Origin: an uncultured Bacteroidales bacterium
GTDB lineage: Bacteria > Bacteroidota > Bacteroidia > Bacteroidales > UBA932
Length of the DNA stretch: 57,617 bases
NCBI GenBank assembly: GCA_900321655.1
Contig: ONWU01000009.1
Location: forward strand, 1 to 57,617
Direction of reading: 5' to 3'
Made by a program: the position numbers and the translations under genes. Below the pieces are notes generated by a model that was not told where the DNA came from, searched no databases, and was given only the letters and a program-made list of their open reading frames with translations. Positions 404-49,896 of the stretch are shown one piece after another (position 1 is the first letter of the stretch; each line of letters starts with the position of its first letter).

Positions 404-1181
404 AAAAAGTAGTAGATTCTTTCTTGAATTTCGTTTGCCAGCTTTCGGGATATATCCTACTTCTTTTGTCCGGGTAGCACCACCCCTTTTCGGTGATTCG
501 CACCCATAAGGATTTAAGCCGCGATGGATTCAGTTTCTTTCCCTGGGGCGGTTTGAGTTTCACGATATAGTCGTAAACCTCGCGGAAAGTGGGAAAACCT
601 TGCTCTTTATACTCTTTTTCAAGTTTTGACAACTCGTCATCAAAAGAAAAGAAATCAAAAGGTAGCCCGGGCGAAGCCTGGGGGGAACCAAACGCAGTTT
701 GGGGGGCATAAGGATACGCCGGAGGCGAAAGAGCTTGTTTTTGGTTTTCTTCTCCCATACCCTCTATATTCCCATTGTCTTTTCCTTTTCCTTTTATATT
801 TCCTTTTATATTAGGGGGTTCGGTGGGGTTTTCTTGGGGTTCGGGTGGGGTTTTGGTGGTTTTTTTATCCCCGGTCGGGCGGCCTCCCTTAATCCCATAT
901 TCTTTGCCATTTGTGCCGTTCAAGGTACGCACCCAATTGGCATCCAATTGCGCCTTAATGGGCGCGAAAAGGGCCTCTAATACCACATCGCCCCCGAAAT
1001 CCGGCTCTTGCATATCAAGGCCGTAGCGGTATGTTGCACGCACCAAAGCGACTACTATTTCGGGCTTGTCTGAAAGGCGTTCAAGTTGATCGGCAAACGA
1101 GCGATAGAAAACGAATCTATCTTTGAATATTTCGCCCGCCTGGAGGCCCAATTCTTTGAGCTTTGTTTCAAGTGTTAGCAT
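387..1181 (-). CDS. DUF6291-like accessory-element protein
   Basis: The protein is about 264 aa. Residues 1-120 contain a charged helical region with FKDRFVFYRSF and a conserved-looking LDANWVRTLNGTNGKEYGIKGGRPTGD stretch. This resembles the DUF6291 proteins found in Bacteroidetes mobile elements and phages, by recollection of the pattern rather than by search. The middle is low-complexity (T/P/N/K/G-rich) and the C-terminal third is charged. The frame stays open upstream to 1376, but I chose the ATG at 1181 because GGAGGAAA precedes it by a few bases and because it overlaps the stop of the upstream small gene. Such proteins often accompany replication or primase genes; the actual function is unknown. 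Confidence 0.6.
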   Translation of the reverse strand: MLTLETKLKELGLQAGEIFKDRFVFYRSFADQLERLSDKPEIVVALVRATYRYGLDMQEPDFGGDVVLEALFAPIKAQLDANWVRTLNGTNGKEYGIKGGRPTGDKKTTKTPPEPQENPTEPPNIKGNIKGKGKDNGNIEGMGEENQKQALSPPAYPYAPQTAFGSPQASPGLPFDFFSFDDELSKLEKEYKEQGFPTFREVYDYIVKLKPPQGKKLNPSRLKSLWVRITEKGWCYPDKRSRIYPESWQTKFKKESTTFYDFDH

Positions 1182-1386
1182 TTGCTTTCCTCCAAAGGAT
1201 ATAGTTTCCACATTCGCACCAAAGCGGATAGCCGCACCGGGTAAACCTGGGGCAACGCCCGCAAGGGGCTTGCACATTCTCGGATTTATCGCTAACTTTG
1301 CACTCGTCGAAATTGAGTACAAGCGCGGTAGAATCTGGAGAGTTGAAAGGGCCTGCAACTGCGGGCCTTTTTTCATTGGTGTTCAT
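1168..1386 (-). CDS. Small cysteine-rich protein (72 aa)
   Basis: The second half carries closely spaced cysteines (CGRCPRFTRCGYPLWCECGNY), a pattern suggesting a small zinc-binding knuckle. The gene starts 11 bp after the stop of the HTH gene. Its last codons overlap the ATG and Shine-Dalgarno region of the DUF6291-like gene by 14 bp, as expected for translational coupling. The alternative, that this is only the 5' extension of the next gene in another frame, is less likely because the cysteine pattern is orderly and the start spacing fits an operon. The family is not recognised. Confidence 0.55.
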   Translation of the reverse strand: MNTNEKRPAVAGPFNSPDSTALVLNFDECKVSDKSENVQAPCGRCPRFTRCGYPLWCECGNYILWRKANANT

Positions 1387-1397
1387 AGCCCACGGGG

Positions 1398-1739
1398 TTA
1401 CTGCATCCGTTTGTATTTGGCAAGTTTGCCAGAGGCGAGTTTTTCCATCAAATCCGCGGCGTTAATCAATGTACGGCGGCCGGACTTTTGAAAGACAATT
1501 GCGCCCTTGTTCATAAGGCCGTGAAGACTCGCAAGGGAAATGCCGATTTTCTTTGCGGCGTCCTCGCGACTGATCCAAACGGGCTGGGAGTCCCCGGCGG
1601 GGAGAACGGCGGGCTTTGCGCCCTGGGCATTGACAACCTCCCTGGCAATGGAGGCGGCGAGTTCCTGAATCTGGGCCTCGGTCAATTGGTAAACCACCAT
1701 CCCGGCGGTGTTACCTTTCTGGATAGAGTTGTTTTCCAT
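1398..1739 (-). CDS. Helix-turn-helix (excisionase-like) DNA-binding protein
   Basis: The 113-aa protein has an N-terminal helical segment and then, at about residues 52-105, a MerR/excisionase-type winged HTH: ISREDAAKKIGISLASLHGLMNKGAIVFQKSGRRTLINAADL. The segment GRRTLI followed by a basic tail is typical of the DNA-binding domain of element-encoded Xis or AlpA-like regulators. It is the first gene of a leftward operon whose later members are small accessory proteins, and it lies 1 kb from a tRNA that is a plausible integration site. It may control excision or transcription of the element. An inverted repeat (CAAGCG, 5 nt, CGCTTG) at 1759-1775 lies in its leader and could be its operator. 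Confidence 0.75.
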   Translation of the reverse strand: MENNSIQKGNTAGMVVYQLTEAQIQELAASIAREVVNAQGAKPAVLPAGDSQPVWISREDAAKKIGISLASLHGLMNKGAIVFQKSGRRTLINAADLMEKLASGKLAKYKRMQ

Positions 1740-1758
1740 AGAATTTGGAATAATGTTT

Positions 1759-1775
1759 CAAGCGTTCCGCGCTTG
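1759..1775. promoter_or_regulatory. Perfect inverted repeat in the HTH gene leader
   Basis: CAAGCG and CGCTTG are separated by five bases and lie between the predicted promoter (1824-1856) and the start codon at 1739. The position suits an autoregulatory operator or an RNA hairpin in the leader. The assignment is inferred from position only. Confidence 0.4.
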
Positions 1776-1823
1776 GCGGCACCTTACAAAAGGGGCTACA
1801 AAACACAACTCAAAGATTTCGCA

Positions 1824-1856
1824 CAAAGATAGATGCTAACTTCGAATAGTTCCAAA
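1824..1856 (-). promoter_or_regulatory. Bacteroidetes-type promoter of the HTH operon
   Basis: On the minus strand a TATCTTTG box (1824-1831) is preceded by TTTG (1853-1856) with 21 nt between. This matches the TTTG/TAnnTTTG pattern and drives the operon 1739-200, leaving a leader of about 80 nt. Confidence 0.65.
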
Positions 1857-2659
1857 TCTTTATTGAGTAAAATTTTGGCGTAATAGTGTGATATATAGCC
1901 TTTTATTATATAAAAGGCGGGCTTACTTGCAGACTATTAACGGCTTATATTTGGCAAAAGTTACACGAAAGAAAATGAATTTTTGACTTATAGATGTAAC
2001 ATAATTGTTACTTTTTGCGGACTCATCCCCCGGCTTTGCGCCCGCGCGCGCGTTGGACTCCATTTCCAGCCAGATTTTCAGGGCCTCCCGTGCGGGGTTT
2101 CAACAATGATATTAACAAATGGACTTAAATTCTAACTTAAAGCCAGACACGGAGGGAAACGCCCCGGCGCGCCCTCCAGGGGCAAGCCCAAAGGCTTATA
2201 CTACCTAAAAAACTAAAAAAAATTTTTGGGCGGACTCACTCCCGCCCCTTGCGCGGGCCAGACTTTCCCCACCCCCCTACGCCTGGACGGGATGCGCTTT
2301 CAGTCCTTGCCGATTGCGGGCCGTTCCGCTTTGATCCGGCGGCCTTTCCGTCCCCGGCTATCTTTGGCCCGTTCCGTTGGTTGTATGCTATCTTTTGCGC
2401 CCGATTCTTTCCAGATTTTTTCCAAAACTTTTTCAAACATTATTCCTTGTATATGTATGCTACTTGTATGCTATGCCCCCGGGGTGGCAATATCCCCCGC
2501 AATGTTTGGATTTCTCGCAGATTCTTTGTAGGTTTGCAGAAACAATGCAAATTGTTTAATAATCCTTTGTTCCCCTGGGCCGCGATGGTTCGGGGGAACG
2601 CCCTAAAAAGGGGGCAAAGGTTGCAAATAGGTAGCAAATTTGGGCTATAAAGACAAAAG
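1857..2659. other. Gene-free end region of the integrated element
   Basis: I find no convincing gene in about 0.8 kb. The stretch alternates AT-rich blocks with very GC-rich blocks. Two blocks share GCGGACTCA followed by a similar C/G-rich run (from about 2018 and 2229), so one may be a diverged copy of the other. An inverted GGAGGG/CCCTCC pair lies at about 2152-2178. Three copies of TGTATGCTA lie between 2382 and 2473. A non-coding region of this kind between an Xis-like gene and a tRNA 3' end fits an attachment or control region. No integrase is visible in the window. Confidence 0.45.
2382..2473 (+). repeat. Three iterated copies of TGTATGCTA
   Basis: The nonamer TGTATGCTA occurs at 2382-2390, 2454-2462 and 2465-2473. 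The last two copies are 11 bp apart, about one helical turn. The first and third extend to TTGTATGCTAT. Such spacing is typical of protein-binding iterons, for example sites for an excisionase, integrase arm-binding domain or replication initiator. The binding partner is not known. Confidence 0.5.
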
Positions 2660-41834: not shown

Positions 41835-42556
41835 TGTCCTTCGACAAGAAAGCCCTGGGGAAAGAACCTCCCCGCGTCACCAGTGCAGATGCTATGCTCT
41901 CTACCATAGAGGAACTGGGCCTAGTCCCCTTCTTCGCCAATGTCATCCCCGGCTATTCCATAGAGGAGATGACGCCTCCCCAGAACTGGTTTGACACGCA
42001 GGAAAACCTTACCTACACCCCCTGGGACTGGAAAATCCCCTGTGTCCAGAGCGGAGAGATAGCCTATGGAAAGTTCCTTTTGGGCGGAAAGGCCGCCTTC
42101 GCAACCGTAGCGTGGTACCGGGAGCTGAGAAACTATCGGCAATCCCTTCCCAAATACCAGCCGGACAAGGCCCAGCAGCAGGTTCTGGATTACTTGAAAG
42201 AAAACGGCAGCATCGGCATCAAAGAAATCCGCGGCCTTCTCAACATCAAGAAAGGCCAGGCCGATGCCCTCATCTGCCACCTGATGATGCAGTGCCGGGT
42301 GGTCACCGGAGACATCATCCGCGTCTTCCGCGGGCCGGACCTCCACTACAACGGTTGGCAAACCTCTTCCTTCTGCACCCCCGAAGATCTTTTCGAGGGG
42401 CCCGCCGTTCCCTTTTTCGCCGGCTTTGAAGCCGCCTCCCGCGAAGGGCTGGAAGCAGACCACTCCCCCGAAGAATCCTACCGGCTATTACAAGAAAAAA
42501 TCCGCAGCCTCTGTCCTGAAGCTACGGATAAACAAATAGCCAAAATCCTGGCCTAA
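41834..42556 (+). CDS. AlkZ-related winged-helix protein
   Basis: The 240-aa protein resembles the family annotated as AlkZ-related. The N-terminal part reads IEELGLVPFFANVIPGYSIEEMTPPQNWF and PWDWKIP, and the middle carries GKFLLGGKAAFATVAWYRELRNYR. A winged-helix-like region follows (KENGSIGIKEIRGLLNIKKGQADALICHLMMQCRVVTG). Distant similarity to the YcaQ/AlkZ crosslink glycosylase suggests DNA binding, but no catalytic motif is obvious, so the function is open. It starts at the GDPD stop; longer starts would run out of frame through GDPD. Its stop overlaps the convergent yggS stop by four bases. Confidence 0.72.
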   Translation: MSFDKKALGKEPPRVTSADAMLSTIEELGLVPFFANVIPGYSIEEMTPPQNWFDTQENLTYTPWDWKIPCVQSGEIAYGKFLLGGKAAFATVAWYRELRNYRQSLPKYQPDKAQQQVLDYLKENGSIGIKEIRGLLNIKKGQADALICHLMMQCRVVTGDIIRVFRGPDLHYNGWQTSSFCTPEDLFEGPAVPFFAGFEAASREGLEADHSPEESYRLLQEKIRSLCPEATDKQIAKILA

Positions 42557-43293
42557 TACTCCCTGGGCCCGAAGATATCCGTTCCGATACGAACCATCGT
42601 AGCCCCGTGCCTGACAGCCACCGGCCAGTCCTGAGACATTCCAATGGACAGCACATCAAAGCCTTCCCTTCCGGAAGCTTTGATCTTTTTAAACAGGGCC
42701 TCAATCCTTTCGAAATCCTTCTCTACCACCTCCATATCGTCCGTATTCGTCGCCATTCCCATCAAGCCCCGGATCCTGATGCCAGTCTGCGAAGGTATAC
42801 CCTCTGAAACCCATGGCCACCCTCGGCCCTGTAAGAGGGAGGGGCCCTTTAGGGAGGGGTCGGCGCAGCCGACGGTTTCAGAGGGTATACCTTCGCAGAT
42901 AGCGAGGATTTCCTCCTCTGAAAAACCCTGTTTGGTTTCTTCGGCCCCAAGGTGAAGCTCCAGAAGAACGTCCACTACCTTATTATTAGCTGTTTCCCAG
43001 GCACTGATAGCCTGCAGCAGATGCAGGGAATCTACGGACTGTACCAGAGAAACGTATGGAAGTACCAGTTTGAGCTTGTTGGTCTGGAGATGGCCGATAA
43101 AATGCCACTGGATGTCCGAAGGCAGCTGCGGCACCTTGGCAGCAAGCTCCTGCGGACGGCTTTCGGCAAACACCCGCTGTCCGGCCTCATAGGCCTCCAT
43201 CAGGCGTTCTACCGGGTGGAACTTGGAAACGGCCACCAGCTGTACCTGCGGGGGCAGCGAAGCCTGGATGGTATGCAAAGCCTGAGCAATCAT
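42553..43293 (-). CDS. yggS: YggS-type PLP homeostasis protein with an in-frame palindromic insert
   Basis: The 246-aa protein has the fold-III alanine-racemase-like barrel. LVAVSKFHP supplies the PLP lysine (K24), and SRPQEL, WHFIGHLQTNK, LSIGMSQDWPVAVRHGATMVRIGTDIFGPREY are the family motifs. It buffers pyridoxal phosphate in the cytosol. Residues 132-169 (38 codons) are foreign to the family. They begin and end with the same EGIPS pentapeptide and contain PSLKGPSL. They lie between a helix (FSEEEILAI) and the strand RIRGLMGMA, a likely surface loop. Both flanks are normal and the frame is intact, so the protein may still work. It overlaps the PAP2 gene by 4 bp. Confidence 0.93.
   Translation of the reverse strand: MIAQALHTIQASLPPQVQLVAVSKFHPVERLMEAYEAGQRVFAESRPQELAAKVPQLPSDIQWHFIGHLQTNKLKLVLPYVSLVQSVDSLHLLQAISAWETANNKVVDVLLELHLGAEETKQGFSEEEILAICEGIPSETVGCADPSLKGPSLLQGRGWPWVSEGIPSQTGIRIRGLMGMATNTDDMEVVEKDFERIEALFKKIKASGREGFDVLSIGMSQDWPVAVRHGATMVRIGTDIFGPREY
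42786..42899. repeat. 114-bp palindromic element inside yggS
   Basis: The element is bounded by a perfect 26-bp inverted repeat (42786-42811 and 42874-42899) whose core is the self-complementary GGTATACC. The 62-bp centre contains a perfect small hairpin, GTCGGC-GCA-GCCGAC (42859-42873), and a repeated GGGAGGGG motif. The total is exactly 38 codons and contains no stop in the yggS frame. The sequence has the look of an intergenic repeat that has entered a gene. Confidence 0.88.
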
Positions 43294-49725: not shown

Positions 49726-49742
49726 CACACAAGATAACACAT

Positions 49743-49776
49743 CAAAACAGCCCCGCATCACTGCGGGGCTGTTTTG
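49743..49776 (+). terminator. Terminator of sdaA
   Basis: A perfect 14-bp stem (49743-49756 with 49763-49776) ends in TTTTG. The following 120 bp up to the TonB receptor stop are AT-rich and appear empty. Confidence 0.9.
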
Positions 49777-49896
49777 GTTAGTTAGTAGTGTATTCTTACC
49801 TTAAAGAAGAAGGTTAATTAGTTGGTTAGAAAAAGCGTTTCACTCTTTTTTATTCTTCCAAAATTTTTTTAACTATTTTTTAGTAAATAAATTATT

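Follow-up and report, generated by a model that had tools for sequence, protein, structure and literature searches.

The window analysed here, a stretch of 57,617 nucleotides from an uncultured Bacteroidales bacterium, carries a palindromic element inside the coding sequence of yggS. This raises the question of how such an element can lie within a housekeeping gene, and whether its peptide, its sequence or its fold is what is kept.

The sequence-only reading of this DNA had described a 114-bp segment with exact 26-bp inverted ends, adding 38 codons without a stop between YggS-like flanks and encoding EGIPS at both ends, and these points were borne out. The element (42786-42899) lies in frame within the yggS ORF (42553-43293, minus strand), which encodes 246 amino acids and is open throughout, with no inner stop. 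The match of this ORF to the YggS family model TIGR00044 (153 bits) is split into two stretches. The arms (42786-42811 and 42874-42899), 26 nt each and 62 nt apart, are 100% complementary, and both are translated as EGIPS in yggS. Among the ten inverted repeats listed for the window (arms of at least 18 nt, distance of at most 400 nt), this is the only perfect one. Elsewhere in the window, at 49735-49784, there is a terminator-like hairpin of 23 nt, 87% paired, with a 4-nt loop.

Folded as RNA, the plus strand of the element reached -76.3 kcal/mol, whereas its shuffles averaged -42.6 and none of 200 equalled it; both strands folded far better than shuffles (z -8.1 for this strand and -9.1 for the other). 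The core-forward strand of this copy is the plus strand, so that the yggS mRNA carries the reverse strand. The features of the locus are as follows.

42553..43293, minus strand: yggS-type coding sequence (PLP-binding protein), 246 aa, with the element in frame inside (TIGR00044, 153 bits)
42786..42899, plus strand: whole palindromic element, 114 bp or 38 codons (inverted-repeat search and the covariance model R1, see below)
42812..42818, plus strand: 5' strand of pseudoknot stem S1, CATGGCC (covariation; coordinates read off the sequence)
42786..42811, plus strand: left arm, 26 nt (inverted-repeat search)
42819, plus strand: one-base loop L1 (pseudoknot parse)
42820..42824, plus strand: 5' strand of pseudoknot stem S2, CCCTC, within the S1 loop (covariation)
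42825..42831, plus strand: 3' strand of S1, GGCCCTG, one of seven pairs being mismatched in the window copy (covariation)
42832..42834, plus strand: loop L3, TAA, a stop codon that blocks one of the six frames (pseudoknot parse and frame survey)
42835..42839, plus strand: 3' strand of S2, GAGGG (covariation)
42845..42854, plus strand: hairpin P3, CCC..GGG, differing in length and sequence among copies (copy alignment)
42859..42873, plus strand: hairpin P4, GTCGGC-GCA-GCCGAC (copy alignment and fold)
42874..42899, plus strand: right arm, exact reverse complement of the left arm (inverted-repeat search)

The element had also been supposed to have entered YggS at a loop, and an AlphaFold2 model agrees with this. 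In the model, helix 126-134 and strand 172-178 are joined by a loop that holds the insert and is predicted with low confidence (mean pLDDT 44-54 for blocks 141-170), the rest of the fold being modelled with confidence.

A repeat family in genes and between them

The assembly to which the window belongs (G000; 2.11 Mb, 59 contigs, 82% complete) was searched with the element as DNA, and further copies were present. The covariance model R1, built from six copies of this genome, detected seven places in it (11 rows, four of which were opposite-strand duplicates; of 401 first-look candidates, 150 received a score). Each of the seven copies is in frame within a single long ORF, and the host genes, named with family models, are yggS, mtaB, truB, ygiQ, tilS, trmB and folP (dihydropteroate synthase). 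At the cut-offs used, this genome gave one match each for mtaB, truB and ygiQ.

R1 was run over 101 genomes (the own genome and 100 relatives), 53 of which had matches at E ≤ 0.01; within the genus, 52 of 61 genomes had matches at this threshold. The matches listed per genome sum to about 700, some places being counted on both strands. The search for further copies that the sequence-only reading had proposed thus found them in the genome and in its relatives, in frame within genes. A wider sample of 294 genomes of the order contained five with matches at E ≤ 1e-6, namely the own genome and four outside the genus. The core layout was unchanged outside the genus in the five loci readable of seven fetched (G231, G259, G182), L332 and L333, from which no sequence was read, and G087 being absent from this comparison. 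The nearest named records are mostly MAGs of rumen or ruminant-gut Bacteroidales, and a scan of viral_contigs with one exact core pattern, which misses variants, gave no match. Across copies the element spans about 108-180 bp, or 36-60 residues. Genome G016 has lower-scoring matches of about 158-164 bp (for example L224, L227 and L230-L239) that are longer, apparently intergenic and in many cases weak-armed; their lengths are near equal, and they possibly represent a second subfamily.

Sorting by judgement of the 38 R1 places of three genomes (7 in G000, 11 in G057 and 20 in G019) placed 24 in frame in identified genes and 12 in intergenic regions, with two unclear (L202 and L203 of G019); no copy was seen splitting a coding ORF among these 38. 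Around 25 non-genic loci of G057, G019 and G016, coding status was judged by codon usage alone. Twenty-two lie between stop-to-stop ORFs or slightly overlap an ORF edge, and three (L205, L219, L226) lie in an apparent open 5' extension and were judged not to be split genes; many of the 22 have an ORF edge within 1-24 bp. Among the 38 matches of G016, 30 were fetched, and most were without a coding-signal ORF on both sides of the element.

The same hosts recur between genomes: G000 and G057 have yggS, mtaB, truB, ygiQ, tilS and trmB in common, and G000 and G019 have mtaB, truB, ygiQ, trmB and folP. In an alignment of 22 YggS proteins (the window and 21 of 80 loci), a long insert was present in the window, L055, L059, L061 and L062, and the other 17 proteins had none at this loop. 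As the sequence-only reading had suggested might be the case, the YggS of relatives thus lacks the residues, or has unrelated residues at the same loop. At least L056 and L060, which have no long insert, retain a remnant of one element end, and L064 retains the outer arm ends with the core gone. The closest yggS pair compared, L059 filled and L064 without, differs at 16.5% of aligned positions; since L064 retains the outer arm ends, this difference may be a deletion. No clean target duplication was seen in the filled/empty pairs compared, this closest one included, none of which is a recent pair. The core-less alleles L064 (yggS) and L312 and L313 (ygiQ) have a dyad symmetry resembling the outer arm ends, which could reflect deletions leaving both ends or a preference of the element for dyad targets.

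Filled, empty and odd-length loops were all present in mtaB, truB and ygiQ, for each of which 30 orthologues were drawn from the 57, 59 and 48 genomes with a match, respectively; because the ranking followed similarity to a query with an insert, genes carrying one are over-represented. The mtaB of G037 (L255) has an apparent arm remnant. Core identity was 0.876 between orthologous copies, 0.870 within the same genome and 0.870 for pairs that are neither, and these near-equal values do not separate vertical descent from re-insertion at hot spots.

Two further observations concern host genes. The mtaB of L257 (G005) carries a different short palindrome (translated as CHAERSEAS / CHSERSEES) in frame, in the same loop that is filled by the palindromic element in other species, and this palindrome recurs in ribF (L149, G019) and upstream of mtaB (L038). 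We take it to resemble TGTC/CGTC-type REPs, on a comparison with the text of PMC3733652 only. In G047, a SAM-methyltransferase gene (L041, ORF 829-1920, minus strand) has one in-frame element and a second SRSRSHGRLRS stretch close to its C-terminus.

The best reading of these copies, with a probability of about 0.7, is that they form a non-autonomous palindromic mobile repeat family of Bacteroidales, kept by its fold and tolerated in proteins as an inert loop.

Core, arms and the strand apparently kept foldable

In the core of the element, the loop of stem S1 (GTGGCC/GGCCAC type) contains CCCTC, whose pairing partner GAGGG lies beyond a three-base loop, giving an H-type geometry with S1 of 7 bp, L1 of 1 nt, S2 of 5 bp and L3 of 3 nt. 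Of 96 copies tried, 93 could be parsed, L051, L209 and L244 falling outside the pattern. All S2 pairs formed in 92 of the 93, and six different fully paired combinations occurred. Among distinct sequences, 42 of 43 had S2 fully paired, where 2000 shuffles gave 19.7 on average and 29 at most. Covariation was scored on the 28-nt segments whose spacer has the commonest length, 35 distinct ones, and reached 0.415, compared with 0.138 when shuffled and at most 0.205 when slid. In these segments 94.0% of cells pair (S2 100%, S1 89.8%), pair 3 of S1 being unpaired in 19 sequences. Two of five shuffle measures were unexceptional, namely both-side changes (40/500) and further pair types (410/500). On the support of this covariation, the core is predicted to hold an H-type pseudoknot. 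S1 and S2 could also be alternative hairpins rather than simultaneous stems; loops of 1 and 3 nt, as in known H-type pseudoknots, should permit both stems together in RNA. The loop bases L1 and L3 (alignment columns 8 and 22) are linked in most rows, A occurring with TAA and G with TGA, either as a subfamily effect or through a tertiary contact.

The arms differ from copy to copy yet remain paired. In six copies, 21 of 47 arm pairs were compensatory, and the arms of 30 copies, with ends set by maximising pairing, had 28 mismatches in 806 positions (96.5% complementary). Their identity was 0.686 between orthologous copies (36 pairs) and 0.662 between unrelated copies (313 pairs), against 0.589 when shuffled. 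Local palindromes within the arms barely exceeded the shuffle (excess 0.58, SE 0.11), and with this weak excess the arms were rejected as dimeric binding sites. The same inner-arm G-A mismatch was seen in different genes of G057 and G054 (L026, L027, L140, L195, L244), which suggests that the inner arm moves together with the element.

Mismatches in the arms also differ by strand. On the core-forward strand of 91 distinct arms there were 43 G-U, 16 A-C and 37 other mismatches (G-U versus A-C, p 0.0006; related copies share mismatches, so the counts are partly dependent and the p-values given here are optimistic). In genic copies, which occur in both orientations (18 sense, 20 antisense), the G-U:A-C ratio was 15:3 where the core is sense to the gene and 11:1 where it is antisense. 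When 29 genic copies were counted on the mRNA strand instead, the bias was absent (12 G-U, 9 A-C). Since the excess appears in sense and antisense copies alike and is gone on the mRNA strand, it is the element's own strand that appears to be kept foldable. The 52 copies without an assigned gene showed no clear G-U excess (17:12, p 0.46). Most copies were collected by the covariance model, which could slightly favour G-U; 11 genic copies reached by protein searches had 8 G-U and 1 A-C (hand count).

These data bear on a special case of the preferred reading, which itself leaves RNA and single-stranded DNA open. The element could be a mobile structured RNA, whose core-forward transcript would fold as a pseudoknot and spread by reverse transcription or by an RNA-guided or ribozyme-like step. 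The compact H-type geometry with its covariation and the excess of G-U over A-C on one strand are both in line with this possibility, but G-T is likewise a mild mismatch in single-stranded DNA. Moreover, Rfam gave nothing at gathering score, either in 801 bases of the window, where three microRNA-precursor models fell below it (the best being mir-540, E 0.0021, 30.3 bits against 80, of a kind that a long hairpin may give), or in 10 further loci, which had three other matches below it. A specifically RNA-borne element is therefore possible, though rather unlikely.

The ygiQ genes of three close species (G038, G037, G005), with nearly identical arms and with flanks about 0.88-0.90 alike, show a change of core orientation. 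The core of G038 was 0.961 identical to that of G037 when flipped and 0.667 when compared directly, and the corresponding values against G005 were 0.902 and 0.642. The left arms of G038 and G037 agree at 31 of 32 bases, with flanks of 0.903 and 0.889. Judged from these alignments, the ygiQ core appears to be inverted in place with its arms retained. Opposite core orientations also occur at orthologous mtaB and truB sites. Such differences in orientation are what would be seen if the arms were recombination sites of an inverton, serving programmed phase variation of protein loops. Copies nevertheless have little arm sequence in common (0.66 versus 0.59 shuffled), the arms are hardly richer in local palindromes than their shuffles, and the hosts are housekeeping enzymes, all of which makes an inverton improbable.

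Reading frames and probable translation of the insert

All six frames are in use among 40 genic copies in ten genes, taken as those with at most one mismatch in the core anchor and an ORF with at least two motifs of the gene. Core-forward phases 1, 2 and 0 were used by 12, 10 and 1 copies, and core-reverse phases 0, 1 and 2 by 9, 2 and 6 copies. The TAA of L3 puts a stop in forward phase 0, and the sole user of this phase, L244, has lost that stop. The survey had 41 rows before the tilS row of G016 (L219) was recognised as a false motif match, and L331, which lies in a 577-aa open frame without a Pfam match, was left out of the genic count.

An open frame ran through the element in 30 of 30 genic copies, which were chosen by a spanning ORF; in 31 copies judged intergenic, some of them only by the absence of a long spanning ORF, 72 of 186 frames (39%) were open. 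The ygiQ rows of ten genomes contained a single stop within the matched region. Loci were fetched for six of these genomes, and in all six the ORF continues beyond the loop to the C-terminus, which places the stop outside the loop. The genic copies being open in the frame used, and no disrupted gene being seen among the non-genic copies, the sequences say that the insert is in all likelihood translated, and that openness would matter rather than one particular peptide.

Selection on the inserted peptide as a functional module of the protein is very unlikely. In mtaB, truB, ygiQ and yggS, the inserts of several species do share a loop, but the six frames used by the 40 genic copies give peptides that are unrelated between frames, the insert is absent from related species, and the AlphaFold2 loop is of low confidence. 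Removal of the element from the mRNA, or its skipping by the ribosome, in the manner of an intron or a bypassed hairpin, is scarcely credible either: the hairpin is very stable, but frame and stops would then be irrelevant, and yet genic copies are open where only 39% of intergenic frames are, in both orientations. Many assemblies are incomplete and in many pieces, and assemblers can be misled by short inverted repeats; even so, an assembly artefact or chance palindrome can be set aside in view of the matches in 52 of 61 genus genomes, the covariation and the open frames.

Proposed mobility and relation to known palindromic elements

Under the preferred reading of a mobile repeat family, insertions within genes would survive only in frame, free of stops and in loops, the extra 36-60 residues being carried as a presumably inert linker. 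The fold on the core-forward strand, made up of the arm helix, the H-type pseudoknot and two hairpins, would maintain the element, and not the peptide or any function within the host mRNA. Most probably this is because a folded single strand, DNA or RNA, would be the substrate of a putative mobilising enzyme during spread, which would explain conserved pairing with free sequence. After insertion, the element would persist at its site, its core inverting between the arms, its paired arms changing and in-frame deletion eroding it. A bolder version, which we offer tentatively and with the odds somewhat against it, is that mobile pseudoknot RNAs or single-stranded DNAs recognised by shape colonised housekeeping enzymes as loops translated in six frames, with pairing counting far more than sequence in the arms and with a core that flips.

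Y1 transposase-like genes were found in 27 of 37 genus genomes searched (hand count of rows). From the matches in the genus, 20 Y1_Tnp loci of 2.7-4.3 kb were chosen, and none of them carried an R1 match at E ≤ 1. Y1 transposases, if involved, would thus act from a distance. A RAYT/Y1 transposase as neighbour of the element was rejected on these 20 loci, and so was a RAYT-mobilised REP. Y1_Tnp (HUH-type) proteins of about 290-370 aa have an ORF in 18 of the 20 loci L174-L193, L182 and L187 being the exceptions.

Among known repeats, the open-frame bacterial MITEs ERIC, YPAL and the 107-bp Correia element are described as small, with inverted ends, both intergenic and intragenic, and as forming a long stem in RNA (PMC2229807). 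The ends of MITEs, as presented there, are characteristic terminal repeats, whereas the arms of the Bacteroidales element vary by copy. The arm identities (0.662 unrelated, 0.686 orthologous, 0.589 shuffled) speak against a MITE defined by shared terminal repeats. GTAG- and CGTC-tagged REPs are likewise palindromic and occur both within ORFs and close to the ends of genes; those of the CGTC type are reported from Bacteroidetes, and no dedicated transposase was found for them (PMC3733652). The definition of the CGTC REP given there is a CGTC end tag, a stem of 8-9 bp, A and T in the first two positions and a short tail (PMC3733652). REPs are stem-loops of 20-40 bp with a fixed tag and tail, in contrast to about 108-180 bp and a multi-part core in the Bacteroidales element. 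Assignment to the CGTC REPs was rejected on the long arms, the pseudoknot and a P4 stem starting with GTCG, by eye against the text of PMC3733652 rather than its figure consensus.

In the open papers searched, no description of such a family in Bacteroidales was found, and none of a pseudoknot, copy-specific arms or in-place inversion. What is new here is the covarying, predicted H-type pseudoknot core and the preference, among the arm mismatches of genic copies, for G-U over A-C on the core strand in either gene orientation. The best-known protein-coding palindromes are those of Rickettsia, and intragenic REPs occur in a few other groups. A genus-wide system in gut Bacteroidales would make their entry into housekeeping enzymes, and their persistence there, testable; useful for that question are its hundreds of matches, its covarying pseudoknot and genes in which the site is filled in some species and empty or eroded in others. 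For annotation, the predicted proteins of these genomes include inserts that are repeat DNA.

The palindromic elements of Rickettsia (RPE) are known from the work of Ogata, Claverie and co-workers, and the sequence-only reading had likened the yggS element to them, a likeness that holds in concept. RPE are described as 105-146 bp long and lying in frame in conserved genes and also in intergenic regions, and one insert-bearing enzyme, gmk, is reported to be active (PMC2229807). RPE-1 lies in truB of R. conorii, and REPs lie in the tRNA pseudouridine synthase B genes of three species (PMC3733652). The Bacteroidales element thus has in common with RPE a palindrome of about 100-150 bp that sits in frame within protein genes, and truB is a host for RPE, for intragenic REPs and for the Bacteroidales element. 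The Bacteroidales element belongs to another phylum and, set against the published descriptions of RPE, would differ in its covarying pseudoknot, copy-specific paired arms, core inversion and genus-wide shared sites. On the best reading, the Bacteroidales element would work in the manner of RPE but be a separate kind, with a pseudoknot core.
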